A stretch of DNA of 35,274 nucleotides from Thiovulum sp. ES (lineage in GTDB: Bacteria; Campylobacterota; Campylobacteria; Campylobacterales; Thiovulaceae), in contig AKKQ01000015.1 of the NCBI GenBank assembly GCA_000276965.1, forward strand, positions 1 to 35,274, read 5' to 3'. How positions within the stretch are numbered: the first letter of the stretch is position 1; each line of letters begins with the position of its first letter. A program made the position numbers and the translations under genes. The notes beneath the pieces are model-generated. The model made no database searches and was not told the DNA's origin. It worked only from the letters and a program-made list of their open reading frames with translations. Below, one piece after another: positions 5,842 to 33,910 of the stretch.

Positions 5842-6204
5842 TTGAAAAAAGTTGCAATTGTTGATGATGAATTAGAAATACTTAATATGTTAGAGAGACT
5901 CTTGAATAGAGAAAAAAATATCGAAGTTAGAGTTTTTAGTAATCCTGAAAATGCAATCGAAGAAGTTAAAGATGGTATTTTTGACTTGGTAATGCTCGAT
6001 ATTATGATGCCTCAAATGAATGGAATTGAATTTTTAAAAGCTATGAGAACGAAAAATCATAAAACAAAAGTTATTATGATGACTGCTCACTCTACACTTG
6101 ATAGGGTTTTAAACTCTCACCAGAGCGGAGCAGATGACTATATTTTAAAACCTTTTAAAAGTCTTCCAAAAATTCTTGACAAAGTTAGAGAAACTCTAGC
6201 TTAA
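5842..6204 (+). CDS. single-domain response regulator (CheY-like receiver)
   Basis: A 120-residue protein that is only a receiver domain. The acidic pair is D8-D9 (VDDE), the phosphoacceptor D53 (VMLDIMMP), the switch threonine T81 (MMTAHS) and the conserved lysine K103 (LKPF). There is no output domain, so it must act by protein binding, as CheY does on the flagellar motor or as a phosphate sink. TTG at 5842 is the start, with AAAGGA 6 bases upstream. It directly follows the chemoreceptor, so a chemotaxis role is likely, but it could instead serve a histidine kinase elsewhere. The IMMPQMNGIEFLK segment looks more like two-component receivers than canonical CheY. Confidence 0.88.
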   Translation: MKKVAIVDDELEILNMLERLLNREKNIEVRVFSNPENAIEEVKDGIFDLVMLDIMMPQMNGIEFLKAMRTKNHKTKVIMMTAHSTLDRVLNSHQSGADDYILKPFKSLPKILDKVRETLA

Positions 6205-6215
6205 CATCAAACTTA

Positions 6216-6237
6216 AAACCAGTTAGAAAACTGGTTT
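6216..6237. terminator. terminator hairpin between convergent genes
   Basis: AAACCAGTT at 6216-6224 pairs with AACTGGTTT at 6229-6237 around an AGAA tetraloop. It separates the receiver stop from the convergent glycosyltransferase stop and probably works in both directions. Confidence 0.65.
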
Positions 6238-6241
6238 CCCA

Positions 6242-7378
6242 CTAATTTTTCAGAGAACAGCTCTTGTGAAAAAAATCTAAAAAACTATCTTTTATACTCA
6301 TATTTTGAATATTTTGATGCCCAACTTCAGAAAACTCTTTTCTCAATTTCTCATTTTCAATAAGTTCGGAAATTTTTTCGATCCACATATCTTTTTCAAT
6401 TGGCAAAACAAAGGCACTTTGCCCATTTTTAACAACAGTTTTTGGACCTCCGATGTTTGAAACAATTGCAGGTAATCCAGAGGACTGAGCCTCCATAACA
6501 CTTTGTCCAAGTGTGTCGTTAATAGATGGAAAAAGAAAGAAATCGGAAGATGCATAAATTTTAGAAAGTTCTTCGCCACCACGATAGCCTAAAAAGTGAA
6601 TTCCAAATTCCGACAAATCTCCAAATTTCTCTTTTCCATCACCAACAACAATTAGCGATGAGGTTTTGTCTCCGCTTCTTTTTTTAAACTCTTTCCAAAT
6701 TTCTAAGAGAAAAGGGAAATTCTTTTCTGGAGTGAGACGACCAACATAAAGAGCTTTGATAGAATTTTTTTGAATTTGTAATCTTTTCCAAATGACCTCA
6801 TCGGCAAATTTTGTGTGAAAAGAGTTTGTGTCAATTCCAGCTTTTAAAACATAAATTTTCTCTTTTGAAACTCCAATACTTTCAGAAATATGCGGAATAT
6901 AACTTTCAGAACGAGAAAAAACTGCGGTGAAATCTTTGTAGAAATTTTTTAAAACTTTTTTAGTAATCCACCGAAGCAGAGAACTTTTTGTATTGTCGTA
7001 AATAAATTCTGGAAAATCGGTATGATAGACTCCCGCCATTGGAATTCCAAATTTTTTTGCAATTTTCCGACCAGAAAATCCAACTAATCCAGGTGTTGAA
7101 ATGTGGATGAGGTCGGGCTTAAATTCCCGAACTATTTTTTCAAACTCTTTTTTTCTCGGAATTACTAAATCAAGTTCTTTGTAAAAAGGCATCTCTATTT
7201 TAAATAGTGGTTTTGTGTTGAAAAATAGAGAGTCGTCGCATCGAGTTTTTGTTGTTGATGTTACAACTCGAAAATCTACTTTTAAGTCTTTTGAGAGTTG
7301 TGAATAGTTTTGGAGAAATCTCGAGACTCCATTTGCATCACAAACCGTGTCCGAAAAAAGTAGAATGCGACAATTCAC
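6242..7378 (-). CDS. GT4-family glycosyltransferase
   Basis: A 378-residue GT-B-fold glycosyltransferase. The N-terminal acceptor domain carries the GT4 opening motif (DTVCDANGVSRF, a variant of the usual D-x-NGV pattern), DLIHISTPGLVGFSGRKIAKK and the YHTDFPEF histidine. The C-terminal donor domain shows the hinge YVGRLTPEKNFPFLLEIW and the nucleotide-sugar motif FPSINDTLGQSVMEAQSSG. It most resembles the GDP-mannose-dependent alpha-mannosyltransferase subgroup, acting on a lipid or polysaccharide at the inner membrane; the sugar is not determinable from sequence. The GTG start overlaps the stop of the pseudouridine synthase gene by one base (TAGTG), showing translational coupling. It is the last gene of the ferredoxin-led run and ends at a shared terminator. 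Confidence 0.87.
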   Translation of the reverse strand: MNCRILLFSDTVCDANGVSRFLQNYSQLSKDLKVDFRVVTSTTKTRCDDSLFFNTKPLFKIEMPFYKELDLVIPRKKEFEKIVREFKPDLIHISTPGLVGFSGRKIAKKFGIPMAGVYHTDFPEFIYDNTKSSLLRWITKKVLKNFYKDFTAVFSRSESYIPHISESIGVSKEKIYVLKAGIDTNSFHTKFADEVIWKRLQIQKNSIKALYVGRLTPEKNFPFLLEIWKEFKKRSGDKTSSLIVVGDGKEKFGDLSEFGIHFLGYRGGEELSKIYASSDFFLFPSINDTLGQSVMEAQSSGLPAIVSNIGGPKTVVKNGQSAFVLPIEKDMWIEKISELIENEKLRKEFSEVGHQNIQNMSIKDSFLDFFHKSCSLKN

Positions 7379-8115
7379 TAATCAAGTCTCATGACAAAAC
7401 TTTTTGGCTCTTTCGCCTCAAATGAGTATCCTAAAAGTTCGGTTTTTTTTGAGTGCAACATAAGTCTTTCATACTCTTTTCCGCCGTAAATTCTATCCCC
7501 TAAAATTGGGTATCCCGCAGATTGTAAATGGACACGAATCTGATGAGTCCGTCCAGTCTCAATTAGAACTTTTACTTTGCTGTATTTTCCGTGAATTGAA
7601 ATTGGTTCAACTTTTGTAATTGCCTCTTCTCCATTTTTAGAAACAGAAACAACGGCACGACCGCCTCGACGATCTTTTTTTAATCGCTTATCAATTTCAA
7701 AAGGCTCGGCGATTCGACCAGAAACTACCGCAACATACTCTTTATAAACATCTCGTTTTTTAAAAGTCTCAATCACTTTTTTCTGATACTCTTTGTTTCG
7801 ACTAAGTAAAAGAATTCCGCTTGTGTCTCGATCAAGTCGATTTAGTAAAAAAGCATCTTTTACTTTTTTTTCCGCCTCTTCTGATTCCATAAAAACGGGT
7901 TTATTTACCGCAATTATGTTTTCGTCTTCAAAAATAAATTGTAATTTCTCAACTCGTTGCACCTTAAAACGGCTAGTTTTTGGAACTTCTGCTCTTGCAA
8001 TTGCAACTCGTCGCCCTTGTAAAAAGACAACTCCATTGTCAATCAATTTTTTTGCTTCGTTATTTGATATTTTTTCTTGTTCTGCTAAAACTTTATATGC
8101 TTTTTCATTTGCCAT
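7378..8115 (-). CDS. RluA-family pseudouridine synthase
   Basis: A 245-residue enzyme that isomerises uridine to pseudouridine in RNA, probably 23S rRNA. Residues 1-60 form a short S4-like RNA-binding region (KISNNEAKKLIDNGVVFLQGRRV). The catalytic domain has NRLDRDTSGILLL, in which the aspartate after LDR is the catalytic residue, and the later ETGRTHQIRVHLQSAGYPILGD motif typical of RluA/RluC/RluD. It is shorter than E. coli RluC/RluD (about 320 residues), as is common in Campylobacterota; I cannot assign the target uridine. The ATG at 8115 follows directly on the stop of the lipoprotein gene and the end overlaps the glycosyltransferase start. Confidence 0.93.
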   Translation of the reverse strand: MANEKAYKVLAEQEKISNNEAKKLIDNGVVFLQGRRVAIARAEVPKTSRFKVQRVEKLQFIFEDENIIAVNKPVFMESEEAEKKVKDAFLLNRLDRDTSGILLLSRNKEYQKKVIETFKKRDVYKEYVAVVSGRIAEPFEIDKRLKKDRRGGRAVVSVSKNGEEAITKVEPISIHGKYSKVKVLIETGRTHQIRVHLQSAGYPILGDRIYGGKEYERLMLHSKKTELLGYSFEAKEPKSFVMRLD

Positions 8116-8931
8116 CTATTCGCTACATTCTTCCATTGGGTTTAAAATTTGTGTTCCGTCGAAAATTCTCGTTTCGATTCCGTATGCTTTTGAGTATAAG
8201 CAGATTTGATTTAAATCGATGTTTGTACCGTCTGGCACATATTCCAAATTTAAGACTGCTCCAATTTTTGAAAAATCTTCATATTTAATGCAATTTTCAT
8301 CTTGATAACAGTTATTTGAAAAAATCAAATCCGCAAAAAGTGTGTGAGAGTAGATTTGATCTTCAACATCGCTAAAACCCGCAAACACATTATTTTCGTG
8401 TGCTTTTCCGCTTAAAAATCTATTATACGAAATTTGATCATCTTCAGTGATTTCAAATCCAGTATCATCTTTCCAAGATGAGACTTCAGTAAAAAGGACT
8501 CCGTCGCAACCAATATTTGAGGCAATTTTTATTCTTTCTCTCATAATAATTTGCACCTCATCGGAGTTTATATCAACCCAATAAGTTCTATTATCGTCTC
8601 GGATTTTTCCAACTGCGATTTCTGGATATGGGTGATCCTCAATTTGAAAATTTCTCTCAATTTCAACATCATAAGCACCAGCCGACATTTTGCAAATAAC
8701 TTTTGTCTCATCAGAACCTATTTTTTCAACTCGACTTTCTGGATTTGTTAAAAAAAGCTCAACAACATAGAGTTCTACATTTTTTGAAGTTGGTGAATAA
8801 CTGCTGTCAATATGCCAAGAAGAACGGCTTTTTGGTTCATACCAAACACCGCCATTAGATTTATCTTCAATGTCTAGCATGTCTTTGTTACAGCCAAACA
8901 GGAGTAGTGATAAGAAAAAGTATTTTAACAA
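8116..8931 (-). CDS. GH114-like (polygalactosaminidase/TM1410 family) lipoprotein
   Basis: A 271-residue protein starting at TTG 8931, with GGAG 8 bases upstream. The signal ends in a lipobox (LLLFGC), so it is a lipoprotein. The body follows the GH114 (endo-alpha-1,4-polygalactosaminidase, former DUF297) order: VELYVVELFLTNPE, KVICKMSAGAYD, the WVDINSDEVQIIMRERIKIA helix, GCDGVLFTEVSSW, ISYNRFLSGKAHENNVF and a late NCYQDENC. In family members the GCDGV segment is followed by acidic active-site residues (typically E-D-N-V-D); here it reads LFTEVSSW, so activity may be altered. GH114 enzymes cleave galactosamine-containing exopolysaccharide. Sitting in a run with a glycosyltransferase fits envelope or biofilm glycan work. 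Confidence 0.72.
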   Translation of the reverse strand: MLKYFFLSLLLFGCNKDMLDIEDKSNGGVWYEPKSRSSWHIDSSYSPTSKNVELYVVELFLTNPESRVEKIGSDETKVICKMSAGAYDVEIERNFQIEDHPYPEIAVGKIRDDNRTYWVDINSDEVQIIMRERIKIASNIGCDGVLFTEVSSWKDDTGFEITEDDQISYNRFLSGKAHENNVFAGFSDVEDQIYSHTLFADLIFSNNCYQDENCIKYEDFSKIGAVLNLEYVPDGTNIDLNQICLYSKAYGIETRIFDGTQILNPMEECSE

Positions 8932-8951
8932 AACGGAAGCTCCGAAATTTT

Positions 8952-10439
8952 TTAAGATTCTAGCAAATTTGTCGGAACTAACCTTATTCGTAGAATATCT
9001 AAATCTTTTATTTTTTCTTGAATCATGTAAAAAAGAGAATTGTTTTTAATGTAAATGAAAAATTCACCATTATTCATCTCAAAATCAATCTCGGGATTTT
9101 TTGAGTAGTCAAGTGTTAAGACTTTTGTCAAATAAATTATCGAGTGTAGTTGTGAAACTGTTTTGTAATCTGGCAGTAAATCATTTCTAAATTCACTATA
9201 TATTTTTCTTGAGACTGAACTCTTTTTACTGTATCGAATAAGAGTCGCAATAAGAAGAGCATCTTTGTGTGTAATTTGGTAAATAAAACTGTTTAGGATG
9301 AGGTGAAAACCACTTTTTGTATTTCCATAAAAATCAACTTTAATACCAATTTCAATCAATTTTGCCGTGTATAAAATTATCTCTTTAAATTCGCTATCCA
9401 GTTGAAAAAAATCTTTTGTTTTTTCAAAAATCTTTTCAGATAAATTAAAACGAGTCTTCATAATTTGAATATTTGAAGTGTGAAATTCATCAAGAATATT
9501 TCTCAAGCTAGGATTAAAGTTTGATGGAAAAGAACCGCGACTATTTCGTAAAATATCACTAAGAAAAATTCCTTCTCGAATTCCAACACCACTTGTTAAA
9601 ATCTCTTTTGCTGAAAACAGACTTGCTGTTTCAATAAAAATAAGGAGTCCCCACCGAATTACATCGAGTCTCTCTTTTTTAAATCCAACTTCTTCTAATT
9701 CCCAATTCTCTTTTTTAAGAAGTGTATTTATAAAGTTTTGTTCAATCTCATACTCATAGCTGTAATTGTGAATTCTTTGAAGTGGATAATTTTCCCGAAT
9801 CATGATAACTTTTGCTAAAGCCCGAAGAGTTCCACCAATTCCAATCATCACTTTTTCATGAAAATGAGTAGGAATTTTTTTCAATTCACTCTGGATATAT
9901 TTTCGACCGCCTTCAAAATCGCTATTCTCTTCAAATAGCTCTTTTAGTCGAACTGTTCCTAAATTTAGTGAGAGTGTCTCAAGAACTTTTCGATTTTCAA
10001 CAAGTGCAAATTCCGTAGAACCCCCACCAATATCGATTGTTACACCACGGTCAAATTTAAGCAAGTTCGCACAGGCAATTCCACCAAGTAGAGCCTCTTT
10101 TTTTCCATCAATAATTTTTATATTTATTCCAAGCTCTTTTTGAACTCGCTGAGTAAAAACTTTTTTGTTTGGTGCATCTCGCAATGCAGATGTTGCAATA
10201 GCCAGAATTTTTGAGACTTTGTAAGCTTTTATTACACTCAAAAATCCTGAAAGGGAGAGAAAAGCTCTCTCCATAGGTTTCTCTTGAAGAACTCCCGCCT
10301 TTGCATATGCTCCCTCGCCAATCCGCACTCGGCTTTTTGACTCATGAACAATTTTAAATCCAAATCGTGAAGTTCTTTCAAAAATGACAAGCCGAACAGA
10401 ATTCGACCCAAAATCAATAACAGCTGTTAGCTTCGCCAA
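8952..10439 (-). CDS. ppx: Ppx/GppA family exopolyphosphatase / pppGpp phosphohydrolase
   Basis: A 495-residue ASKHA-fold phosphatase. The first phosphate motif is AVIDFGSNSVRLVIF near the N terminus and the second is VTIDIGGGSTEFALVE near residue 145; ATSALRD and the GTVRLKELF segment are also characteristic. The C-terminal half (about 310-495) is the helical HD-like portion. It releases phosphate from polyphosphate and/or converts pppGpp to ppGpp; sequence alone does not say which dominates. The TTG start at 10439 is two bases after the ferredoxin stop, so the two are cotranscribed. The ferredoxin-Ppx/GppA pair is seen in Campylobacterota such as Helicobacter, which supports the taxonomic placement. 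Confidence 0.92.
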   Translation of the reverse strand: MAKLTAVIDFGSNSVRLVIFERTSRFGFKIVHESKSRVRIGEGAYAKAGVLQEKPMERAFLSLSGFLSVIKAYKVSKILAIATSALRDAPNKKVFTQRVQKELGINIKIIDGKKEALLGGIACANLLKFDRGVTIDIGGGSTEFALVENRKVLETLSLNLGTVRLKELFEENSDFEGGRKYIQSELKKIPTHFHEKVMIGIGGTLRALAKVIMIRENYPLQRIHNYSYEYEIEQNFINTLLKKENWELEEVGFKKERLDVIRWGLLIFIETASLFSAKEILTSGVGIREGIFLSDILRNSRGSFPSNFNPSLRNILDEFHTSNIQIMKTRFNLSEKIFEKTKDFFQLDSEFKEIILYTAKLIEIGIKVDFYGNTKSGFHLILNSFIYQITHKDALLIATLIRYSKKSSVSRKIYSEFRNDLLPDYKTVSQLHSIIYLTKVLTLDYSKNPEIDFEMNNGEFFIYIKNNSLFYMIQEKIKDLDILRIRLVPTNLLES

Positions 10440-10441
10440 TT

Positions 10442-10693
10442 CTACTCTTCGTTCTGAATTTTTTCGTATTTGAATTTTAGTTCAGCAACACTTTCAACAT
10501 TGTCAGGGTCTGGCTCAAAACAATCAACTGGACAAACTGAAATACAGATTGGCTCATCATAGTCATTAACACACTCTGTGCATCTATCTGGATCAACAAT
10601 ATAAATTGGATCTCCCTCTTCGATTGCTTCAGTTGGACACTCTTCTCGACATGCATCACATGCGATACACTCATCATTAATAAGTAAAGCCAT
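10442..10693 (-). CDS. 2[4Fe-4S] ferredoxin (YfhL-like)
   Basis: An 83-residue bacterial-type ferredoxin. The first cluster motif is CIACDACREECP and the second is CTECVNDYDEPICISVCP, where the insertion between the second and third cysteine of the second motif is the feature of the YfhL / Allochromatium-type subgroup. A short acidic and helical C-terminal extension follows, also usual there. Such ferredoxins have very low potential and carry electrons in the cytoplasm. It is the first gene of a five-gene minus-strand run and overlaps nothing upstream; a 67-bp gap separates it from the HNH gene of the accessory island. This gap is therefore the left junction of the island. Confidence 0.95.
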   Translation of the reverse strand: MALLINDECIACDACREECPTEAIEEGDPIYIVDPDRCTECVNDYDEPICISVCPVDCFEPDPDNVESVAELKFKYEKIQNEE

Positions 10694-10760
10694 TTTATCT
10701 CTTTAAAAAATTTTCGACCTTTTACCAAATTCAAATTGAAATCTAGCTGAAAATCAATTT

Positions 10761-11735
10761 TTATTTGATTTTTAAAAAATCTTTGTATGGTTGTTTCTCT
10801 TTTAAAGTTGGGTGATTATTGTAATGACATTCCATGCAAAGAACTTTCAAATTAGAACTTAAATTATTTCCCTTGTTTTTATCCATGTGGTGAGTGTGAA
10901 TATATTTTTTCTCATTTGCATTTCTTGGTTTCCAATTACACTCTTGACAAGTATAATTTTGTGCTTTTTTTCTCTCAATTGAAATTTTTCTCCACTCTTT
11001 TCTGTATTCATTTGAGACTTCTTGATAGTCCATATCCATACCAGAAACATCAAGACCATCAAAAACAAGTTTCGGAGAGTCTCCATCAATAACAGTTTCA
11101 GGTCGAGTTTGAAAATGTTTTTTTAAACTAAAGTAAGAGACATTTAAAGTATTTCTATATTCACCTTTATAAAATTTTCTTTCATCAGAAACTCCCATTT
11201 CCTTATAATTTGGATAGAGTTCTTTTACACAAGTTTTACAAACATGTAATTTCTGATCTGAAATAAACTTATCACCAAAAGAGAAATGAAAAGTTCCATC
11301 TTGAGAAAGTGAAACTCGATATTTTTCTAAGTTTCCATTATTCTTTTGCATTTCAAGAGCTTTACAATAGTGCAAATGATATTTTGGTAAATTATCTGGA
11401 GAATTTTTTTTAACTGAAGTTCTTTGTGCAATGTGAAGAAGAACACGACGACCTTTGTAAAAAAGTCCGTTGTCTGTTCGTATCAAATCTTCAGAATATA
11501 AGGCACAACCATTTTCATTTGTAAATTCAATTTCAACACCACTTTTTTCAAGAATTCTGACCTCATCGGCACTCAAATTTTTTGAAAGTGCATTAGCAAT
11601 AACTTGATTCTCTTCTTGTGATCCTCCAAGCTTAATTCGTTTTTCACCATTTGCCGTTTTTATGGTAATTCTCTCAATAATCTCAATTCCAGAATCCTGA
11701 ACTAACTTTTTAAAACTACTACCAAAATTAAGCAT
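10761..11735 (-). CDS. HNH endonuclease, ZorE-like candidate
   Basis: A 324-residue protein with a C-terminal HNH nuclease: CQEC zinc knuckle near residue 250, the HTHHMD catalytic histidines, then NLSSNLKVLCMECHYNNHP, which supplies the N, the second CxxC and final H. A second Cys cluster in the middle (HYCKAL and HVCKTC, residues about 125-175) may hold another zinc. The N-terminal third has no family I recognise. The gene starts 18 bp after the ZorA-like gene with AGGA upstream, so they are one transcript. In type II Zorya the third component ZorE is an HNH-type nuclease; that parallel is the basis for the name, not a sequence comparison. A GACCTCATCG word lies at 11559-11568. Confidence 0.75.
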   Translation of the reverse strand: MLNFGSSFKKLVQDSGIEIIERITIKTANGEKRIKLGGSQEENQVIANALSKNLSADEVRILEKSGVEIEFTNENGCALYSEDLIRTDNGLFYKGRRVLLHIAQRTSVKKNSPDNLPKYHLHYCKALEMQKNNGNLEKYRVSLSQDGTFHFSFGDKFISDQKLHVCKTCVKELYPNYKEMGVSDERKFYKGEYRNTLNVSYFSLKKHFQTRPETVIDGDSPKLVFDGLDVSGMDMDYQEVSNEYRKEWRKISIERKKAQNYTCQECNWKPRNANEKKYIHTHHMDKNKGNNLSSNLKVLCMECHYNNHPTLKEKQPYKDFLKIK

Positions 11736-11753
11736 TTTTAAGATTATCCTTTT

Positions 11754-13289
11754 TTATTTCATCAACTTTTTAGCATTCTCTAAGAACATGTTGTAGTCTT
11801 TTGTGAATTCGCCAGTTATCGCAGAAATTCCATCTCCAAAATCTTGTAATTGTGTTGGTAACTCATTTGAGATTTTGATAATTGTTTCAGAGTGCTGTTG
11901 TAAAGTTTCAGAAATTTGAGTTTTCTGATTTTCAAATTCAGTAGAAACAGTATTTAAAGTATTTGTGATTTTTTCACCGTTTTGAGTGATTGCGGAATCA
12001 ATATCAGTTATTAAAGTTCCCAAGTCCGTTTGTATCGATGAGGTTGCCATTTGGAAATTTGAACCAACATCTTTAATACTTTTCTCAATATTTGGGAAAA
12101 CCTCTTTTGCTTTTTCAGAAAGTTCAGCATAAGTTGTTAAGTGTCGATTGACCTCATCGATTTGGAATTTATAAGTTTCGATTGTCTCTTTTAATTTGTC
12201 GTAAGTCTCAACAACTTCTCCATTTCGAGCTGAAATAGTTTCAAGTGAAGTTTTTGATTTTTCCATTGAATCCATTGAAGTTTTTAGATTACTCTCCATT
12301 GCCTCAACAGAACTTTTGTAGTTTTCTTGCCAAGTAACTAAATCAAAAACAGCCTTATTTAACTCTTTGAAATTTTCTCCAAACTGTGTAGTTAATTCGT
12401 CATTGAAATCTTGAATAACTTGTTGAAGAGCCTCGATAATATCTTTTGAAGCACCTTCTGAAATTTTTTGGAAAGTCTTATCTAAAAGCAAATTCATATC
12501 TTCAAAATTCTTTCCAAAACTCTCAATTAAAGTTTTGTTTTGCTCATTTTGATTTGTTTTTAAATCTGTAATTGCATTTGTGATTTCTGGAAGCTTTGCA
12601 AGAGCTTCATTGCTAGTTTCTAACTTTGTATTTAAAGTTTCCAAATTATCCAATTTACTTAAATTATGAAGAGAATCTAGTTTTGTAAGTTTTGTAGAAA
12701 TATCTGAATTTGATTTTTCAAGTTTTTCAAGAGAATCTAGTTTTTTTACAATTGAATTATTTGATTTTTCAAGATTTTGTAATTTATCAAGTTCTTCTAG
12801 TTTTCCTAATTGATTTGCTAAATCTTTTAAACCGTAAAGTTTTTCGCCAAGTTCTTTCAGAGAATCAAGCTTTTTAGAATCTTTTGCAATTTCTGAAAGT
12901 TTATTTTCAGTATTTTCAACACGACCATTTAAATTTTTCAATTCTTCACGAATATCTGAAAGAATATCAACAAAATTTTCACTATTCGTAGATGGCTTTT
13001 CTCTCCATTTTTCAATAATTGTTAAAAATAGAAATGCAACCATTCCTGCAACAGAAGTCAAAAATGCTGTTGTCAATCCACCTAAAAGAGTTGGCAAAGA
13101 TTTTTCAACATTTACATAATCAAAGCCCCAAAGTCCTATAACAATTCCGATAAAAGTTCCAAGAACCCCAACAATTGTTACGGTAGATTTAATGCTTGTG
13201 TTTCTTTTGTAAAAATATAAAATTTCTGCAAAAAATAGAATTACAATAATTCCTATAATTATTGTAGTTAATAAATCTGTAGTATTCAT
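11754..13289 (-). CDS. ZorA-like MotA/TolQ/ExbB-family channel with long coiled-coil tail
   Basis: A 511-residue inner-membrane protein. Three membrane segments lie at about 4-26, 33-55 and 67-92; the second carries VGVLGTFIGIVIGLWGF and the third GLTTAFLTSVAGMVAFLF, the MotA/ExbB-type channel helices in the form typical of ZorA. From about residue 105 to the end it is almost entirely coiled coil. The stretch 140-230 is built of repeated LDSLEKLEKSN-like units, followed by long amphipathic helices with many S/T/Q residues. Zorya ZorA likewise has a MotA-like head and a long cytoplasmic tail thought to transmit a signal to effectors. Its ATG overlaps the stop of the BRO gene by four bases (ATGA), and the HNH gene follows. 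The matching MotB-like partner is encoded at 15038-15775 on the other strand. Confidence 0.78.
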   Translation of the reverse strand: MNTTDLLTTIIIGIIVILFFAEILYFYKRNTSIKSTVTIVGVLGTFIGIVIGLWGFDYVNVEKSLPTLLGGLTTAFLTSVAGMVAFLFLTIIEKWREKPSTNSENFVDILSDIREELKNLNGRVENTENKLSEIAKDSKKLDSLKELGEKLYGLKDLANQLGKLEELDKLQNLEKSNNSIVKKLDSLEKLEKSNSDISTKLTKLDSLHNLSKLDNLETLNTKLETSNEALAKLPEITNAITDLKTNQNEQNKTLIESFGKNFEDMNLLLDKTFQKISEGASKDIIEALQQVIQDFNDELTTQFGENFKELNKAVFDLVTWQENYKSSVEAMESNLKTSMDSMEKSKTSLETISARNGEVVETYDKLKETIETYKFQIDEVNRHLTTYAELSEKAKEVFPNIEKSIKDVGSNFQMATSSIQTDLGTLITDIDSAITQNGEKITNTLNTVSTEFENQKTQISETLQQHSETIIKISNELPTQLQDFGDGISAITGEFTKDYNMFLENAKKLMK

Positions 13290-14293
13290 GCTTCTTCTTT
13301 CTTTAAGTTGTGATAAGTGATTCTGATTGTTTCCATCAATTCAAAAATTTCAATTTCATCACCACCTTTTAAAATCAAATCTAGTAAAATTTTGACTTCT
13401 GCTCGGAGTGGTCGAGGAAAACGAGAAATATTATAATCTGTCATTTCGAGAGCTTTAATTTCTGAATATCGATTGATTCTTTCAGCAAGAGAACTTAGTG
13501 AGACTTTTGTGTGTGGAGATTCAATATATTGCACCAAATCCGTGATTACAGAATTCAGATAACTTTTAAATCTTTTCAATTCATCATCAGAATAATAATT
13601 TATTGCAATTAACAAATCAGCTTTTAACTCTTTTCGATAATTTCTCAATTGATTAAAACTTTTAATCGATAGCTTTTTTTGTTGCTCTTTCATTTCGTCA
13701 AAAACAATTTGCCCAGCCGTTTTTTGAACTGTTGCAATATGAAGATTTTGAAACATTCTTGAAAACATTCCACTAATCTGCTTTTGAGTTGCACCAAATT
13801 TTAACAATTCTCCATAAATTACACTTTTTAATCTTTTGTGTTCCAAATCAAAAAGTTTTCTCTCTTCATAAATTGAATTTGCTTTTTCAACCAAATCGGA
13901 AACTTGACTATCAGAAATCTCTTTTGAGATATAAAAACCATTTTTTCTAATTGACGGCAAAACTTCTTTTGTCAGCCATTGCTTAAAGTCTTTTGCCTCA
14001 ACTTTTTTTGAACCAATAATTGCTGTGTATATACCACTTTCATTTATAAGAGACATTTTTTGAATTCCTCCGAGGGTACGGATTTTTTCCGTCCCCTTAT
14101 CTTCTACTTCAATTCTTTTGAGCATATTGTTTGTATCAACTTTGCCGTTACTTCGTTGATAACCTAAAATATTTGCCACATCTTTCGCTACAAACCAAAG
14201 TTCTTGAATATCCAAATCAACAAAAGTTCTAATCTCTTTTCCCTGAAAAAATTTGAAATTTTCAGGCATTTTTTCTAATTTCTTTAAATTCAT
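13286..14293 (-). CDS. BRO-N domain protein inside the Zorya-like island
   Basis: About 335 residues. Residues 10-120 are a BRO-N domain (LWFVAKDVANILGYQRS, then INESGIYTAIIGSKK, and WLTKEVLPSIRKNGFY). The remainder (about 125-335) is helical, rich in K/E, with no family I recognise; it is different from the C-terminal domain of the BRO gene at 760. The ATG at 14293 is chosen because AGAAG precedes it by four bases; an ATG four codons upstream (14305) has no ribosome site. It is the first gene of the leftward operon and is coupled to the ZorA-like gene (ATGA overlap). As a predicted DNA-binding protein at the head of the operon it may autoregulate the divergent promoter or control induction of the system. 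Confidence 0.75.
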   Translation of the reverse strand: MNLKKLEKMPENFKFFQGKEIRTFVDLDIQELWFVAKDVANILGYQRSNGKVDTNNMLKRIEVEDKGTEKIRTLGGIQKMSLINESGIYTAIIGSKKVEAKDFKQWLTKEVLPSIRKNGFYISKEISDSQVSDLVEKANSIYEERKLFDLEHKRLKSVIYGELLKFGATQKQISGMFSRMFQNLHIATVQKTAGQIVFDEMKEQQKKLSIKSFNQLRNYRKELKADLLIAINYYSDDELKRFKSYLNSVITDLVQYIESPHTKVSLSSLAERINRYSEIKALEMTDYNISRFPRPLRAEVKILLDLILKGGDEIEIFELMETIRITYHNLKKEEA

Positions 14294-14305
14294 TTTACTT
14301 CTCAT

Positions 14306-14332
14306 TTATTTTGTTAAAATACTATCAAAAAA
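14306..14332. promoter_or_regulatory. compact divergent promoter region of the Zorya-like island
   Basis: Only 27 bases separate the outermost ATG codons of the BRO gene and the MNT gene (39 if the BRO gene starts at 14293). A plus-strand TAAAAT at 14315-14320 would start transcription a few bases before the MNT ATG, giving a nearly leaderless mRNA; a minus-strand TAGTAT-like -10 overlaps it. The two promoters must overlap, so one bound protein could control both halves of the island. Confidence 0.4.
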
Positions 14333-14617
14333 ATGAGACTCCAAAGATCTGAAATTTCAAACCTAAAAAACTCTATTTTCTTGTTTGACAAAAATGCAAA
14401 AATCTATCTTTTTGGCTCTCGAGTTGATGAACAAAAACGGGGTGGAGATATTGATATTCTCGTGATTTCAGATATTTTAAATGAAAAAAATAGACGAAAA
14501 ATAAGAAGAAACTTTTTTCAAGAATTTGGCGAACAAAAATTAGATATTATTATAGAAAATCAGAAAAAAATATCACTTTTTGGCAGAGAAATATTAGAAA
14601 AGGCAATAGAAATTTGA
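14333..14617 (+). CDS. MNT-domain nucleotidyltransferase antitoxin (MntA-like)
   Basis: A 94-residue minimal nucleotidyltransferase. The active-site motif is FGSRVDEQKRGGDIDILV, that is G28-S29 followed nine residues later by D39-x-D41, with a third acidic position in KLDIII. In HEPN/MNT toxin-antitoxin modules this enzyme AMPylates a tyrosine next to the HEPN active site and so silences the toxin. The stop overlaps the TTG start of the HEPN gene by four bases (TTGA), the usual tight order MNT then HEPN. It heads the rightward operon and has almost no leader. The functional link to the ZorB-like gene downstream is inferred only from overlap. Confidence 0.85.
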   Translation: MRLQRSEISNLKNSIFLFDKNAKIYLFGSRVDEQKRGGDIDILVISDILNEKNRRKIRRNFFQEFGEQKLDIIIENQKKISLFGREILEKAIEI

Positions 14618-15048
14618 AAAGAGAATTTTTTCAAGAATTGCATAAAAATTTAGAAAAACAGATTTTTTGGCTTTCGCATTCAATTGAAAAAAGCAAAAAC
14701 ATAGATTTGAAAAATTTAGAAGTTGATGATTTTGATATTTTTGAAACTCTCTCTTCTCGTTTTGCTAGGACAATTGATTTTCTTGTTCGGAAATATTGGA
14801 GAGCTTTGGATTCTGTGGAGTTTGAGACTCAAGGCACATTAATTGATGTTGTAAATCGTGCAGACAAAAGAGAGCTTTTTTCAGATATTGAAAGATTTCG
14901 TGAATTGAAAGATTTGAGAAATGAAATTGTTCATGAATATTTAGATGATAGTTTGGAAAAGTTTTTTGGAGAAATCCGAGTAGATTCTTTAGAACTCTTG
15001 GAAATTTGCCAAACAACTTTAAGCTATGGAGAAAAATATGCAAAATAG
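14614..15048 (+). CDS. HEPN-domain toxin (HepT-like ribonuclease)
   Basis: A 144-residue all-helical protein with the HEPN RNase motif RX4HXY exactly kept: R102-NEIV-H107-E-Y109. Y109 is the residue that MntA-type partners modify. The motif sits in the expected last third of the domain (LKDLRNEIVHEYLDDS). In known modules HepT cleaves RNA (for example tRNA ends) when not AMPylated. TTG at 14614 is used, with AAGG about 10 bases before it and overlap with the MNT gene. The end of the gene overlaps the ZorB-like start by 11 bases, so toxin and motor protein are translated from one message. That overlap is the most unusual feature of the locus. Confidence 0.85.
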   Translation: MKREFFQELHKNLEKQIFWLSHSIEKSKNIDLKNLEVDDFDIFETLSSRFARTIDFLVRKYWRALDSVEFETQGTLIDVVNRADKRELFSDIERFRELKDLRNEIVHEYLDDSLEKFFGEIRVDSLELLEICQTTLSYGEKYAK

Positions 15049-15775
15049 TGAAAATGAAAATGGTGAGGAGTGGCTCTCAATTTCAGATTTGATGTCTGGA
15101 TTAATGTTGATTTTTCTTCTTATTGCAATTACTTTTATGTATCAAGTGAATAAGCGACTTGAAACAACAATTGACTACAAAAAGAAACTTGAAGAGATTT
15201 CAAAAGAATATGCACTTGTTGAAGAGAATTTGTATCAGGCTTTGAGAGATGAATTTAGAAAAGAAGAGTTGGAAAAATGGAATGTAATTATATTACCAAA
15301 TAATACAATTCGTTTTAATTCTCCAGATGTTTTATTTGAAAGTGGGGAAGATTATGTTTCTGATGAATTTAAGGGAATTTTGGTAGATTTTTTTCCAAGA
15401 TATGTTGGTGTTTTGACAAGAGACGATTTTGTGAATTTTGTAGAAGAGGTTCGAGTCGAAGGACACACTTCCTCAATTTGGAACGGTTACACTGGAATTA
15501 ATGCTTATTTAAAAAATTTAGATTTATCTCAAAGACGAGCAAAAAATGTTCTCGATTTTGCAATTCGTATCGATAAGGTCTATCCAAAATTTGAGTGGTT
15601 GAAATTGAAATTTCGTGCAAACGGACTTTCGTCAGCAATTCCAATTCGAGATGAAAATGGAAATGAAGATACGGAAATGTCAAAAAGAGTTGAATTCCGA
15701 ATCACCACAAATGCTCGTGATGCTTTACAAAAATTGGAAACTTTGAGAAAAGAGATGGAATCAAAAGAGAAGTGA
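15038..15775 (+). CDS. ZorB-like OmpA/MotB-family stator protein
   Basis: About 245 residues. A single membrane helix follows a short acidic N terminus: WLSISDLMSGLMLIFLLIAI, in which D17 is in the position of the proton-accepting aspartate of MotB. Residues about 40-75 are a coiled-coil linker. The rest is an OmpA-like peptidoglycan-binding domain (VRVEGHTSS, NLDLSQRRAKNVLDFAI, FRANGLSSAIPI, MSKRVEFRI). ZorB has this same plan. The ATG at 15038 is preferred since GGAG stands 7 bases before it; the ATG at 15026 lacks a site. It overlaps the HEPN gene and its stop overlaps the next start (GTGA). It should pair with the ZorA-like protein encoded on the other strand to make a peptidoglycan-anchored proton-driven complex. 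Confidence 0.82.
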   Translation: MQNSENENGEEWLSISDLMSGLMLIFLLIAITFMYQVNKRLETTIDYKKKLEEISKEYALVEENLYQALRDEFRKEELEKWNVIILPNNTIRFNSPDVLFESGEDYVSDEFKGILVDFFPRYVGVLTRDDFVNFVEEVRVEGHTSSIWNGYTGINAYLKNLDLSQRRAKNVLDFAIRIDKVYPKFEWLKLKFRANGLSSAIPIRDENGNEDTEMSKRVEFRITTNARDALQKLETLRKEMESKEK

Positions 15776-16563
15776 AAATATTTCTTCTTATTTTGCCAAT
15801 CTTTTTAAATGCTTTTGTTGAAACTGGTGAAGGAACGGCAATGTCAAAAATTGAGGCTTATAAAATTGCTGTTTCCAATGCAAAAGCAAAAGCACAACTC
15901 CGTTTAAATACACAAGTAGAAACGGAATATCAGAGTGAAAAAAGTGTTGCTGATGGAAAAGTTTCGACCGATATTTCTTTTTCCTCAAAACAAAAATCTA
16001 TCGGAATTCTGAAATTAGTTCATGTTTTTGATGAAAAAACATAATTTGAACATTACAAACAATGGACTTTTTACACAAAAAAATTAAAAGCTGAATTTAA
16101 AATCATAAAAAAAGAACGAATTGAAAAACCTAAAATTGTTCAAAAAGTAGAACCCCCAAAACAAGAAATTGTAAAAAAAGTAGAAACTCCAAAAATCAAA
16201 AAACATATAAATAATTTTAAAATAAAAGTTGATTTTCAAATCAAAAATAAATATTGGAAAAGGCTAGACAAATATATTTTAATTATTCCAGAGAATGAGT
16301 TTGAGAAACTGAAATTTTCACAATTACGATTTTCAAAAAGTGGGAGTTTGTATAAAAAGATTTCAAAATATCTTTATAAAATAGGAGATACTTTTGAAAA
16401 AAAATTAAATCGAGGAAATTATAAATTCTCTTTTTTAATGGGGAGTAGATTTTTTTTAGTGGAAACTGATGGAGAAAATACAAACTTTAGAAATTTAGAA
16501 ATTGGAAATGACTTTTCAAAAAATTTCATAATTTCTGATTCAAATTTCAGAAGTTGGAATTAA
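15772..16563 (+). pseudogene. secreted LPP20-like protein gene split by an in-frame stop
   Basis: One continuous frame of about 263 codons runs from GTG 15772 to TAA 16561-16563, broken only by a single TAA at 16042-16044. Before the stop are a signal peptide (MKIFLLILPIFLNAF) and an LPP20-like segment (GEGTAMSKIEAYKIAVSNAKAKAQ). After it the frame continues sensibly with FEHYKQWTFYTKKL, a K/P-rich linker (about residues 110-145) and a basic C-terminal domain of about 110 residues. The GTG overlaps the ZorB-like stop by four bases, so it belongs to the operon. Either a recent nonsense mutation (one base from CAA, GAA or AAA), a sequencing error, or read-through; the remaining codons look undecayed. 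LPP20 resemblance is by pattern only. Confidence 0.65.
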
Positions 16564-28698: not shown

Positions 28699-28774
28699 CC
28701 TATTTTAATTTATTAAGAATTTATTGTTATATCTTTTGTTAAAATTATATTTACTTTATAAAAAAAGGAGTCCA

Positions 28775-31700
28775 ATGTATTTTCCAATATTTACATTAAC
28801 GGCTATGCTATTTCTTTCATCCTGTGGTAGTGAAAGTAGTAATTCTTCACAATTAAACAATTCATCCTCTTCAGAAGAAATAACTTCTGAAACGAATTCA
28901 GAAATAACTTCTGGATTAAGTAGAGTTTCTCCATCTTCAATTAATAAAGATTATTGGGGAGAGTGGCAAGAAGTTGGAACAAGAACAACAAAAAGACTTT
29001 ACATAACATCAAAAACAGAACTTGAAAATATGATTATTCATGAAAATGATATTGTTGAAATAGATAATCAGTTCTTCATTCGAACTGGAGTAAATAATGT
29101 TAATTTAGAGGGTAAGGTCTACGGAGAAACAAACTTAAAAACAACCTCATCGATAAGATCTACAAAAGCAACTGGTTTTGTAAATATGGCAAATATTGAA
29201 ATTTATCTTCAAAATATGGAAGATCAAGCAATAAATGTAACAACAGAAACAGATGAAAACGGAACTTTTTCGAACAACACACTTCCTGCTGGTGATTATT
29301 ATTTAGAAGGAACAGATGATGGGAAAATTGTTTTAGAAGCTAATGTAACTCTCTCTTTTAAAGATGAAGATTTGGGGCAATTTAAAATTGTTGGTAGTGA
29401 AAATTCAAATTTTCGAGTTGTTCTTGGTCAAGACACTGAAAATATATATGCAAATGGAGAAATCTACGAAACAACTTTAAGAGTTAGAAACATTGGAACA
29501 AAACCTGGTTATGGTTTAAATTATGATATTGAAGTTCTTGGTGCAAATAGTTTTGAAGTAGAAAATAATATTGGAACAATCTTACCTGGTGCATTCACAG
29601 ATATTAAAATTTCTATGAGTTTTTCACAGCAATACGAGAATGTCAAAGAATATCCAATAACAATTAAGATTAATGATGCAAATGGAAATCAATGGTACGA
29701 AGAGGTTGTTTTAAATGTTTATAAAGGTTATTTTACATTTAATTTTCAAGCTCAAAGTTCTTTGTCTGGTGTTTTGATTTATCCAAATGGAAAATCTGAA
29801 GAATTTAATGTTCAAAACAAAACAGATTTAAATCTTCCGTTAATTAGAGAAAATGAGAGTTATGCTTTTGTCTTGACAAATTACGGTGATTTAAATGCGG
29901 AAGCAATTTACGGAATTGGAATAGATACAAGTGTAAATATTTTAGCATTTTCAGATTTTAAAGATACTTCAGCATTTGAACCAAACAATGCTTTAAATAC
30001 TGCTGAAATCCTTGAGGAAAAAAGTCAAATCACTTCTTATTTACATTTTAATGACATTGATTATTGGAAAATTATTACTGAAGAAGATAGTTCTAAAAAT
30101 ATGGAAGAGTTAAATAATTTAGAACCAAATGCTCGATTAAGTAAATCTTGGAATGATGAAAATTTAACTTTAAGTGCAGAAACAAGCACAGACGACGAAG
30201 GAGTTGTAAAATATATTTTTACAAGTTCAGTTGACGGTCTTCTTTATCAAGGAAATTTAAACTCAGTTAGTTCAAATGAGTTATCTGAAACTTCACATGA
30301 AATTAATTTAACTGTTGTTGATAAATGGGGTGAAACTGATACAACATCACAAATTATTGATATTTTTAAAAGAAATACTCCTCCGATTGCTAAATTAAAA
30401 TCAAATTTAAATTCAATTAAAGAGGGAGAAACTGTAACTTTTGACATGTCAGATTCAAGTGATAATGTTGGGATAGAAAAATATATTTTAACAAGTGATC
30501 TTGATGGTGAAATTTACAATGGAACAAATTCAAATTTTTCAACTACGGATTTATCTGCAGGAAATCATACAATTTCTTTAAAAGCTATTGATGAAAAAGG
30601 ATTAGAAAACAGTGAAAAGGTCAGTGTTCAGATTCTTGTAATTGGAGAAAAACCTGTTGCCGTTTTAAGTTTGTGCGATTCTGAAAATGTTGATTATGCT
30701 TTTCAAGAACTTTCTCCAAATATAGAAATTTGTATAACTGGTTCAAATTCAAGAAGTGTTGTTAGTACAATTTCAAAATATGTTTTTGAAAGTTCAATTG
30801 ATGGTGTTTTATCAGAAAATTTAGATTCTTCAGTTTCTAAAAAACTTTCTGCCGGAAATCATGAAATTACACTTTTTGTTACTTCTAAGAATGGATTAAG
30901 TAGTGAAATTGTTTCTATGAATTTAATTGTAAAAACAAGTTCGCCAACAGCAATGATTTCGACTCAAAAAGAGGCTTATGGAAAAAATGAAAATGTTTAT
31001 ATCTCTGGAGAAGATTCTATTGATCCTGATGGAGATATTTCAACTTATACTTTTACAAGTTCAATTGATGGTGAATTATATTCTGGTGAAAATAATTTTG
31101 TAAATAAGATTTTATCTTTTGGAAAACATAAAATAACTCTTGTTGTAGAAGATTCAACTGGAGAAACTGATTCCCTTTCTAAAGAAATTGAAATTAAAAA
31201 CCTGAAACCAACTGCTAATTTGTATGTTTCAAAAACTGAATTTAAGAAAGATGAAGAAATTATCTTAAATGGTTCTAGCTCTTTTGATTCAGATGGAGAG
31301 ATTAAAAAATATATTTTTACAAGTTCTTTAAATGGAACACTTTACACAGGCGAAAGATCCAGTTTCACAGCAACAAGCTTAAAAGCTGGAGAACATGAAA
31401 TTACTTTAACCGTAGAAGATGATAATGGTGAAAAAAATTCTACTGAAACAAAATTTACAATTTTAAATGAACTTCCGAGTGCAACTTTAGATATTGATGG
31501 TAGAAGTTTTTCACAACATGCAAAAGTTCAAATTGATGGTTCAGCTTCAAGTGATTCAGATGGAGAAATTGTTAAATATATTTTTAAGAGTAATCAAGAT
31601 GGAATTATTTACAACGGTTCTCAAAGTATTGTTGAAATATCAACACTTTCTCCAGCTGAACACATAATTGAATTAGAAGTTGTAGATGACAGCGGAGCAT

Positions 31701-33910
31701 CTGCTTATTCATCAAATTATAGAAGAATTACAATTATTGAAAATGGAAAACCTATTCCAGTTTTAGAAATTGAGGATAAAGAGTATCTTTTAGATGATGT
31801 TGTTTATTTAAATGGTTTATCTAGTAGTGATGAAGATGGGATCGATGATATTGTTTCTTACACATTTACATCATCAAGAGATGGAGAATTATATTCAGGA
31901 ACAACAAATTATTTCCATGCTAGAAATCTTTCAATTGGTGATCACGAAATTTCTCTAACAGTTACTGATAAATTGGGACTAAGTTTTTCGGATATAAAAA
32001 ATTTAACAATTACGAATAAAGACCCAGAAGCAAGTCTTGAAATTTCAGGAACTGAATATTATGCTGGTGAAATTGTTTATATGTCAGCAAAGAGATCAAG
32101 TGATGAAGATGGTGAAATTAAAAACTACACTTTTTCAAGTTCGTTAGATGGAGTTCTCTCAACAAACAGCGATAAGTTTTCAACAACAAATTTATCTGTT
32201 GGAACTCACACAATTACTCTGAGTATTGAAGATTACAATGGAGGAATTACTACAAAAACAGCAAGTTTAACAATTTTACAAAACTTAGCACCTGTTACAG
32301 TTTTAGAGATTGAAAATAGTAGTTATAAAAATAGCGAAATAGTTTTAATGTCGGGTGCTAATTCAGTAGATTCTGAAGGTTCAATTGTGAATTACAAATT
32401 CAGTAGTTCTCTTGATGGAATCTTATACACAGGTGTAAATAATAGTTTTCCAAAAAAAGGTTTTTCTGTTGGTGTTCATACAATGAAATTAGAAACAACT
32501 GATAATCTTGGATTGACAAGCGAATCTACAAAAATAATTACAATTGAAAACAGTTTGCCAACTGCGATTATTTCTCCTTTTGAAGAGAGTTATCTTTCAG
32601 GTGAAGAAATTAGTTTTTCAGGAGCAAGTTCTTCAGACATTGACAACTCAATTGAAAAATATAAATGGGTTAGTTCAATTGATGGTGAAATTGGGGGAGG
32701 AAAAAGCAGTTTTTACTATTCAGCTCTCTCAATTGGAACTCACACAATTACTTTAACTGTTACAGATGAAAATGGTGGAATTAATTCGACCTCATCAACA
32801 ATTAAAATTGTTCAAAACAATGCACCCGTTTCTCTTTTAAAAATAACAGATAGTTCAGATATTGAAACAGCAAATTTCACAAAAGGTGAAACAATTAAAT
32901 TTGATTTTAGTGGCTCTTCTGATTTAGAAGATACAGTTGCTTCTAAATTTGTTTTAACAAGTTCTCTTGACGATGAGGTATATAATGGGACAAGTTCAAA
33001 TTTTACAAAAAGTAATCTTTCTGTTGGAACTCATGTTTTAACTCTAACTGTTTCTGACAGACTTGGTGTAACAAACTCAACTTCAAAAACAATCCAAATT
33101 TCAAATAAACTTCCGACTGCTGTTTTGACGATTGCAAAAGAGAGTTATACAACTGAAGAATCTGTAATTATCGATTCTCGTTCTTCAACTGATCCAGATG
33201 GAAATATTGCAGAATTTATAATCAAAAGTTCGCTTGATGGTGAAATTGGAACTACTTCTTATTTTTCTTTAAATGATTTGTCAATCGGAACTCATGTTAT
33301 TCAATTAACTGTTGTTGATGATGATGATGGTGAAAATACTGTTTCTAACACAATTGAGATTAAAAGCTTAAAACCTGTGGCTATGCTAAATAGTGAATAT
33401 TCAAGTTATTTAACTGGAACAACAATTAGTTTTGAATTTAACGGATCAATGGATAGCGATGGTGAAATTACCAATTATAAATTACTAAGCTCAATTGATG
33501 GTGAAATTTTTTCTGGATTACTTGCTGAAGATAAAATTGGAATTGAAGAAAATTCCCTTTCTGAAGGAATTCATAAAATAACTTTAACTGTTACAGATGA
33601 CGATAGCGAACAAGCTGAAGACGAAATTGAACTTACAATTAAAGATGTCAATGAAAAACCAATTGCTGATTTATCTATTAATCAAGTTGATAGAACTGTA
33701 ACTATTTTTGGACATAATTCAACCGATCCAGATGGTTTTATCACTCGATACAGATACAAAAGTAATATTGATGGAATTTTCCATGAAGATACAGATGGAA
33801 AAAGTTTTGATTATTCAAATTTTAGTACTGGTGAGCATATCATTATTTTAGAAGTTGAAGATGATACTGGAGAAATTAATACAATATTTAAAACCCTAAC
33901 AATTGAATAG
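28775..33910 (+). CDS. giant PKD-like-repeat surface lipoprotein
   Basis: About 1711 residues from ATG 28775 (AAGGAG 5 bases upstream). The lipobox is LFLSSC, followed by a Ser/Asn/Glu-rich linker. Then come a carboxypeptidase-regulatory-like beta-sandwich (about 120-190), a CARDB-like segment (about 215-300, TLRVRNIGTKPG), and a pre-peptidase C-terminal-like stretch (EPNN... NDIDYWKI, about 410-440). From about residue 455 to the end are fourteen PKD-like repeats of 75-95 residues, with consensus features SSDSDGEI, then Y-FTSSLDG-LY-G and LS-G-H-ITLTV-D--G. The stop overlaps the next gene by eight bases. Such chains make long surface or adhesin-like fibres; ligand unknown. Acid-rich repeats suggest calcium binding. 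Confidence 0.85.
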   Translation: MYFPIFTLTAMLFLSSCGSESSNSSQLNNSSSSEEITSETNSEITSGLSRVSPSSINKDYWGEWQEVGTRTTKRLYITSKTELENMIIHENDIVEIDNQFFIRTGVNNVNLEGKVYGETNLKTTSSIRSTKATGFVNMANIEIYLQNMEDQAINVTTETDENGTFSNNTLPAGDYYLEGTDDGKIVLEANVTLSFKDEDLGQFKIVGSENSNFRVVLGQDTENIYANGEIYETTLRVRNIGTKPGYGLNYDIEVLGANSFEVENNIGTILPGAFTDIKISMSFSQQYENVKEYPITIKINDANGNQWYEEVVLNVYKGYFTFNFQAQSSLSGVLIYPNGKSEEFNVQNKTDLNLPLIRENESYAFVLTNYGDLNAEAIYGIGIDTSVNILAFSDFKDTSAFEPNNALNTAEILEEKSQITSYLHFNDIDYWKIITEEDSSKNMEELNNLEPNARLSKSWNDENLTLSAETSTDDEGVVKYIFTSSVDGLLYQGNLNSVSSNELSETSHEINLTVVDKWGETDTTSQIIDIFKRNTPPIAKLKSNLNSIKEGETVTFDMSDSSDNVGIEKYILTSDLDGEIYNGTNSNFSTTDLSAGNHTISLKAIDEKGLENSEKVSVQILVIGEKPVAVLSLCDSENVDYAFQELSPNIEICITGSNSRSVVSTISKYVFESSIDGVLSENLDSSVSKKLSAGNHEITLFVTSKNGLSSEIVSMNLIVKTSSPTAMISTQKEAYGKNENVYISGEDSIDPDGDISTYTFTSSIDGELYSGENNFVNKILSFGKHKITLVVEDSTGETDSLSKEIEIKNLKPTANLYVSKTEFKKDEEIILNGSSSFDSDGEIKKYIFTSSLNGTLYTGERSSFTATSLKAGEHEITLTVEDDNGEKNSTETKFTILNELPSATLDIDGRSFSQHAKVQIDGSASSDSDGEIVKYIFKSNQDGIIYNGSQSIVEISTLSPAEHIIELEVVDDSGASAYSSNYRRITIIENGKPIPVLEIEDKEYLLDDVVYLNGLSSSDEDGIDDIVSYTFTSSRDGELYSGTTNYFHARNLSIGDHEISLTVTDKLGLSFSDIKNLTITNKDPEASLEISGTEYYAGEIVYMSAKRSSDEDGEIKNYTFSSSLDGVLSTNSDKFSTTNLSVGTHTITLSIEDYNGGITTKTASLTILQNLAPVTVLEIENSSYKNSEIVLMSGANSVDSEGSIVNYKFSSSLDGILYTGVNNSFPKKGFSVGVHTMKLETTDNLGLTSESTKIITIENSLPTAIISPFEESYLSGEEISFSGASSSDIDNSIEKYKWVSSIDGEIGGGKSSFYYSALSIGTHTITLTVTDENGGINSTSSTIKIVQNNAPVSLLKITDSSDIETANFTKGETIKFDFSGSSDLEDTVASKFVLTSSLDDEVYNGTSSNFTKSNLSVGTHVLTLTVSDRLGVTNSTSKTIQISNKLPTAVLTIAKESYTTEESVIIDSRSSTDPDGNIAEFIIKSSLDGEIGTTSYFSLNDLSIGTHVIQLTVVDDDDGENTVSNTIEIKSLKPVAMLNSEYSSYLTGTTISFEFNGSMDSDGEITNYKLLSSIDGEIFSGLLAEDKIGIEENSLSEGIHKITLTVTDDDSEQAEDEIELTIKDVNEKPIADLSINQVDRTVTIFGHNSTDPDGFITRYRYKSNIDGIFHEDTDGKSFDYSNFSTGEHIIILEVEDDTGEINTIFKTLTIE
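30160..33905 (+). repeat. fourteen tandem PKD-like repeats
   Basis: Repeats begin at roughly every 75-95 codons. The best conserved DNA core encodes FTSSxDGxLY and is about 30 bp, but the copies have diverged (for example FTSSIDGEL, FSSSLDGVL, VSSIDGEI), so the array is old, unlike the EVETGENT array. Repeats 1, 3 and 11 have irregular lengths. Confidence 0.8.

Follow-up and report, generated by a model that had tools for sequence, protein, structure and literature searches.

Thiovulum is a giant sulfur bacterium. The DNA analysed here, a stretch of 35,274 nucleotides from Thiovulum sp. ES (hereafter ES) that we refer to as the window, carries a divergent locus of seven genes (Table 1). Its leftward arm encodes ZorE, ZorA, and a BRO-N protein, and its rightward arm encodes a nucleotidyltransferase (MNT), a HEPN toxin, ZorB, and a small secreted protein. 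An earlier note on this DNA had placed seven reading frames here, with zorA and zorB on opposite strands, and we found all of them at the positions and on the strands claimed. The tight junctions it described also hold: zorE and zorA are 18 bp apart, 4-nt overlaps join zorA to the BRO gene, MNT to HEPN, and zorB to the secreted gene, and HEPN overlaps zorB by 11 nt if translation starts at the ATG at 15038, or by 23 nt from the ATG at 15026. We prefer 15038 as the zorB start because it is supported by the sister species Ca. T. imperiosus. What did not stand is the unbroken run of the secreted gene to 16563, since an in-frame TAA ends its open reading frame after 90 aa. An Rfam scan of the window found no RNA, and seven window genes tested for defence function included no further defence gene. 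The window also encodes, at 28724-33910 on the forward strand, a 1,728-aa protein with repeated PKD domains.

Table 1. Genes and intergenic features of the divergent locus in Thiovulum sp. ES, in window positions.
Feature	Position	Strand	Evidence
zorE, HNH nickase-type effector, Zorya II, 324 aa	10761..11735	-	PADLOC ZorE2 1.4e-40; NCBIfam ZorE 1e-20 (below its cut-off); HNH and zinc-ribbon residues
zorA, MotA-like channel subunit with long coiled-coil tail, 511 aa	11754..13289	-	PADLOC ZorA2 5.4e-64; 8VVI ZorA 1.2e-25
BRO-N/RhuM protein	13286..14305	-	Pfam Bro-N 5e-20, RhuM 1e-8; PADLOC PDC-S05 1e-9
Divergent gap between start codons, 27 bp	14306..14332		Palindrome 14309-14330 within
MNT nucleotidyltransferase antitoxin, 94 aa, GSX9DXD	14333..14617	+	Pfam Polbeta, NTP_transf_2; NCBIfam MntA 3e-4 (below cut-off)
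HEPN toxin, 144 aa, TTG start, R102/H107/Y109	14614..15048	+	Weak Pfam HepT; structure model; invariant motif
zorB, MotB/OmpA-like subunit (ATG 15026 alternative)	15038..15775	+	PADLOC ZorB2 8.6e-81; 8VVI ZorB 1.3e-42
Small secreted gene, first part	15772..16044	+	In-frame TAA 16042-16044; intact homologue in imperiosus
Secreted-gene frame past the stop	16045..16563	+	Homologous to C-terminal part of intact relatives

By its predicted components, the ES locus is a Zorya type II system. Zorya identity had been proposed earlier and is borne out: HMM profiles and the structure PDB 8VVI match all core components and place them specifically in type II. A better match of the MotA-like and OmpA-like proteins to another family was looked for, and ZorAB remained the best. 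The closest solved relative by sequence is 8VVI, the type II ZorA5B2 complex of Sulfuricurvum kujiense (PMC11890865), a member of the same order, Campylobacterales. The ZorA alignment to 8VVI spans the channel and the tail and keeps the type II tail signature; the NCBIfam ZorA2 profile is matched at 8e-49, below its equivalog cut-off. In ZorB, the membrane aspartate of the ion path (D21, numbered from the ATG at 15026) and the GHTSS motif align with 8VVI, and the peptidoglycan-binding domain is present; the aspartate of type II ZorB is reported under the same number, D21 (PMC11890865). The HNH and zinc-ribbon residues are conserved in ES ZorE. A single-sequence ZorB scan of the genome contigs gave no match. 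Published work supports a ZorAB complex that is powered by ions, is bound to peptidoglycan, and requires its tail for defence; it likewise supports ZorE as a nickase (PMC11890865; PMC13192584).

The HEPN gene runs in the same direction as zorB and overlaps it, and its predicted assignment as a toxin held up. The RX4HXY motif, which is that of HepT toxins (PMC7641770), is intact and invariant in six relatives. The structure model (pLDDT 90.8) has a HEPN-toxin fold: its best Foldseek matches are HEPN toxins of HEPN-MNT pairs and the top seventeen are all HEPN-type, with TM-scores of about 0.55-0.70 in the top ten and weak E-values (0.009 and above). The neighbouring MNT exceeds the cut-offs of both Pfam families. 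Its motif has one residue fewer in the spacer than the published GSX10DXD, the aspartates still align, and G28, S29, D39, D41, and D71 are invariant. No relatives of this HEPN turned up in a scan of viral contigs, so a phage origin is unsupported. Three MNT genes were found in ES, one beside Zorya, one beside cas6, and one after a putative type IIG restriction-modification gene (a label read from sequence); these neighbourhoods fit a guard role and ordinary clustering of defence genes alike. The cas6-associated genes are of another MNT/HEPN lineage and also adjoin an NYN-domain gene (L072, G000:C12:16500-35500, 8938-11739).

The small secreted gene is broken in ES, and its frame is open again from 16045 to 16563 after the stop. 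The Ca. T. imperiosus homologue is open over 293 aa that align on both sides of the ES stop; either the ES gene has recently become a pseudogene or the draft assembly is in error there. The label "LPP20-like" given to it earlier has to be dropped: the gene has no Pfam match, its intact relatives have no convincing Pfam or NCBIfam match, and the curated LPP20 profiles of both databases match neither. The AlphaFold model of the protein is poor (pLDDT 37). A profile of the gene matches four of 349 genomes, all Thiovulaceae and always at the Zorya locus, with an extra borderline N-terminal match in imperiosus (E 9.5e-4). Because it is present solely at Zorya loci, we consider it a candidate accessory component; the protein is probably a Zorya accessory of Thiovulaceae and perhaps works with the periplasmic part of ZorB.

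The start codons of the BRO and MNT genes are 35 bp apart in imperiosus, compared with 27 bp in ES, and both gaps contain a 22-bp palindrome (TTTTGTTAAAATnCTAwCAAAA). The exact palindrome occurs once per genome in the two species, both times in the divergent gap, and was not seen upstream of other Thiovulaceae MNT genes. Support for the site comes from its being common to both gaps and not from a generic palindrome score, for which the ES gap is no better than shuffles (146 of 300) and the imperiosus gap is better (1 of 300). When the gap was scanned for consensus promoters, scores rose little above those of shuffled sequences. The palindrome may serve as a shared operator of both arms. The BRO-N protein, with Pfam Bro-N and RhuM matches both above cut-off, is a possible DNA-binding regulator.

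The MNT, HEPN, ZorB, secreted-protein arm recurs in imperiosus with identical overlaps (4 nt with a TTG start, 11 nt, and 4 nt). Since this order and these overlaps are common to a second species in which MNT, HEPN, and ZorB share 62-78% protein identity with those of ES, the arrangement is more than chance. Gene order around the neighbouring marker metX differs in every relative. In the imperiosus locus (L033), one arm reads secreted gene, ZorB, HEPN, and MNT. The divergent arm has BRO, then a TnpB element, then only the C-terminal 73 residues of ZorA, and finally ZorE; at 11500-14014, a TnpB-type gene occupies the place of the BRO end and most of zorA, and a short ZorA-like gene lies at the opposite end. 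The seven-gene order would be ancestral to both species, with the zorA body later lost there from imperiosus. Between the two, dN/dS is lowest for HEPN (0.08), followed by ZorB (0.13), BRO (0.29), MNT (0.30), ZorE (0.34), and the secreted gene (0.32-0.39), all rough values at a dS of about 1 to 1.8.

The other family members vary. In the Tui Malila strain, ZorB, MNT, and HEPN are colinear in that order, and a separate contig carries a second, distinct HEPN/MNT lineage between the secreted gene and zorA. In Ca. T. stygium, ZorE-ZorA is divergent from secreted-ZorB with no HEPN/MNT within, and the same-family HEPN/MNT lies unlinked about 66 kb from this split Zorya II. In Ca. T. karukerense, ZorB-ZorA and ZorA-ZorE fragments fall on two contigs, and linkage to HEPN/MNT was not seen. 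HEPN/MNT thus stands at Zorya in three of five Thiovulaceae genomes; whether other genomes link it with ZorB had been left as a check, and two further ones do. Trees group the ZorB proteins encoded at the Zorya loci of ES, imperiosus, Tui Malila, and stygium in one clade (100/98), and the HEPNs from these four genomes likewise (100/100); ES and imperiosus are sisters. These single clades indicate that both proteins were probably inherited within the family while their linkage rearranged.

Orphan ZorAB genes elsewhere in Thiovulaceae (the pyrB/ispE region and others) fall outside the Zorya-locus clade. A second chromosomal ZorA/ZorB-like pair is present in all five genomes (L039, L195, L038, L037, L041, L048). 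In ES its zorB lies between pyrB-like and ispE-like genes (L039 9980-10666), and its zorA is found elsewhere, adjoining a dynamin-family GTPase (L195 8612-10051); in imperiosus, the gene after this pair's zorB encodes a ZorE-like protein lacking the HNH part (L038 8749-9956). Such HNH-less ZorE-like proteins, about 175 aa long, are found in other Thiovulaceae, and S. kujiense has one immediately downstream of ZorAB (L212 317-847, L213 8658-9194, L214 8828-9355, L211 9453-9971). A further ES ZorB-like gene has a start resembling a BRO-N protein (L040, G000:C25:13000-24884, 5994-9626), and its neighbours are a ZorA-like fragment, a frame ending in an Lcl_C (DUF1566-type) domain, and a nearby BRO gene.

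Outside the family, the HEPN family is present in many Campylobacterales genomes. None of 37 HEPN/MNT loci outside Thiovulaceae has a confident ZorA, ZorB, or ZorE within the surroundings searched (up to 9 kb per side, shorter at contig ends); one has a weak 40-bit ZorB match 8.7 kb away. Zorya II was also examined at seven loci of the order that lie outside Thiovulaceae: all have the colinear order A, B, E, and neither HEPN/MNT nor the secreted gene was among their BLAST matches. ZorE is split into two frames at one of the seven, and the S. kujiense ZorE lacks the HNH part. The divergent Zorya II arrangement was seen solely in Thiovulaceae.

Compared with known type II systems (E. coli ATCC 8739; S. 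kujiense 8VVI), the ES locus has all three components, the ZorB aspartate, the ZorA tail signature, and an HNH ZorE, but departs from the usual, though not strictly defining, colinear zorA-zorB-zorE order in that zorEA and zorB are divergent, and it holds extra genes for BRO-N, MNT, HEPN, and secreted proteins inside. ZorAB can pair with other partner genes, as in Zorya type III (PMC8565338); the partners there differ, and ZorF/ZorG (DUF3348/DUF2894) are absent in ES. The HEPN/MNT pair resembles type VII systems (HepT/MntA; Shewanella, Legionella) in its RX4HXY motif, HEPN-toxin fold, adjacent DXD-bearing MNT, and overlapping genes, and differs from them in the shorter GSX9DXD spacing and in lying upstream of, and overlapping, zorB. 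The nearest functional precedent, by functional analogy only, is CreTA, a toxin-antitoxin inside a CRISPR-Cas defence locus that penalises its loss (PMC12737573); unlike the ES pair, CreTA is RNA-based and repressed by Cascade, and there is no sign that Zorya represses HEPN. In the open literature, with subscription journals mostly outside coverage, we found no described Zorya with HEPN/MNT. The locus is a Zorya variant new in layout and gene content.

We judge it somewhat more probable than otherwise that this is a divergent Zorya II whose zorB operon has taken in a type VII-like HEPN/MNT pair, either as a guard or addiction module or as an independent last-resort RNase. Following published Zorya work, ZorA5B2 would respond to phage entry at the envelope and, via its tail, lead to DNA nicking by ZorE. 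The MNT would keep the HEPN RNase modified and inactive, by putative AMPylation, and the coupling to zorB would make loss or shut-off of the operon harmful; alternatively, the pair may be a last-resort RNase of its own. Either way HEPN/MNT could act on its own terms, and the evidence does not require a signal from ZorAB to HEPN. The type II core, the order and overlaps repeated in imperiosus, the colinear ZorB, MNT, and HEPN of Tui Malila, the second MNT/HEPN lineage there beside zorA and the secreted gene, the strongest constraint at the locus falling on HEPN, and the restriction of the secreted gene to Zorya loci all argue for recruitment. Autonomy of HEPN/MNT at the 37 loci and in stygium argues for a recruited toxin-antitoxin over a new Zorya effector, and conserved coupling together with recurrence disfavours pure chance. 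Against it stand the linkage missing in stygium and not seen in karukerense, the intact HEPN/MNT beside a broken zorA in imperiosus, which hitchhiking fits too, and the covalent modification of the toxin by type VII antitoxins, which makes it hard to see how active HEPN would be freed when the operon is lost.

Hitchhiking is unlikely, though it keeps some weight. On this view HEPN/MNT pairs tend to gather near defence genes of all kinds, and the present pair came to lie in the zorB operon with no functional link. Hitchhiking accommodates the ES pair at cas6, the MNT gene after the putative restriction-modification gene, and a position relative to zorB that varies between genera and is lost in stygium. 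It explains less well why overlapping junctions were kept in two species despite their protein divergence, why two HEPN/MNT lineages stand at Tui Malila Zorya genes, and why no other defence gene appeared among the seven window genes tested; a single chance insertion in ES comes to 0.7% (a rough figure from ~2,190 genes, 3 MNT genes, and 5 slots, before clustering).

The earlier note had cast HEPN as a second effector under the envelope sensor, and this part fared badly, given the stand-alone pair at 37 loci and the split Zorya II of stygium without HEPN/MNT. On that account, ZorAB activation would both license DNA nicking by ZorE and de-repress RNA cutting by HEPN, which we regard as improbable. 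Conserved translational coupling of HEPN to ZorB, the strongest constraint falling on HEPN, and the association of HEPN/MNT with Zorya in three of the five Thiovulaceae genomes, one of which has two such lineages, speak for it; the many genomes that have the HEPN/MNT family and no Zorya, stygium, and the seven other Zorya II loci of the order speak against. We are equally doubtful of a Zorya subtype particular to Thiovulaceae, with the ZorAB motor, aided by a dedicated secreted ZorB partner, controlling both the ZorE nickase and the zorB-coupled HEPN, and with one operator in the 27-bp gap switching both arms; a single sensor that would govern DNA as well as RNA cutting is the less probable interpretation. 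Decay of a formerly working Zorya is the least probable and can go with any of the other explanations: the ES stop in the secreted gene and, in imperiosus, the TnpB element and missing zorA middle fit it, but ES zorA, zorB, and zorE run their full length and keep the conserved residues, dN/dS of ZorB and ZorE indicates constraint, and a sequencing error in the draft assembly could account for the stop.

The most promising new lead is the secreted gene, which provides a specific candidate for the protein that ZorB would partner with in the periplasm. The locus bears on two questions about Zorya: how infection is sensed in the periplasmic space, and whether its motor is able to power more than one kind of effector. 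With its reading frames tied to that of zorB, the toxin-antitoxin would also offer a testable link between a defence system and an addiction module outside CRISPR-Cas.
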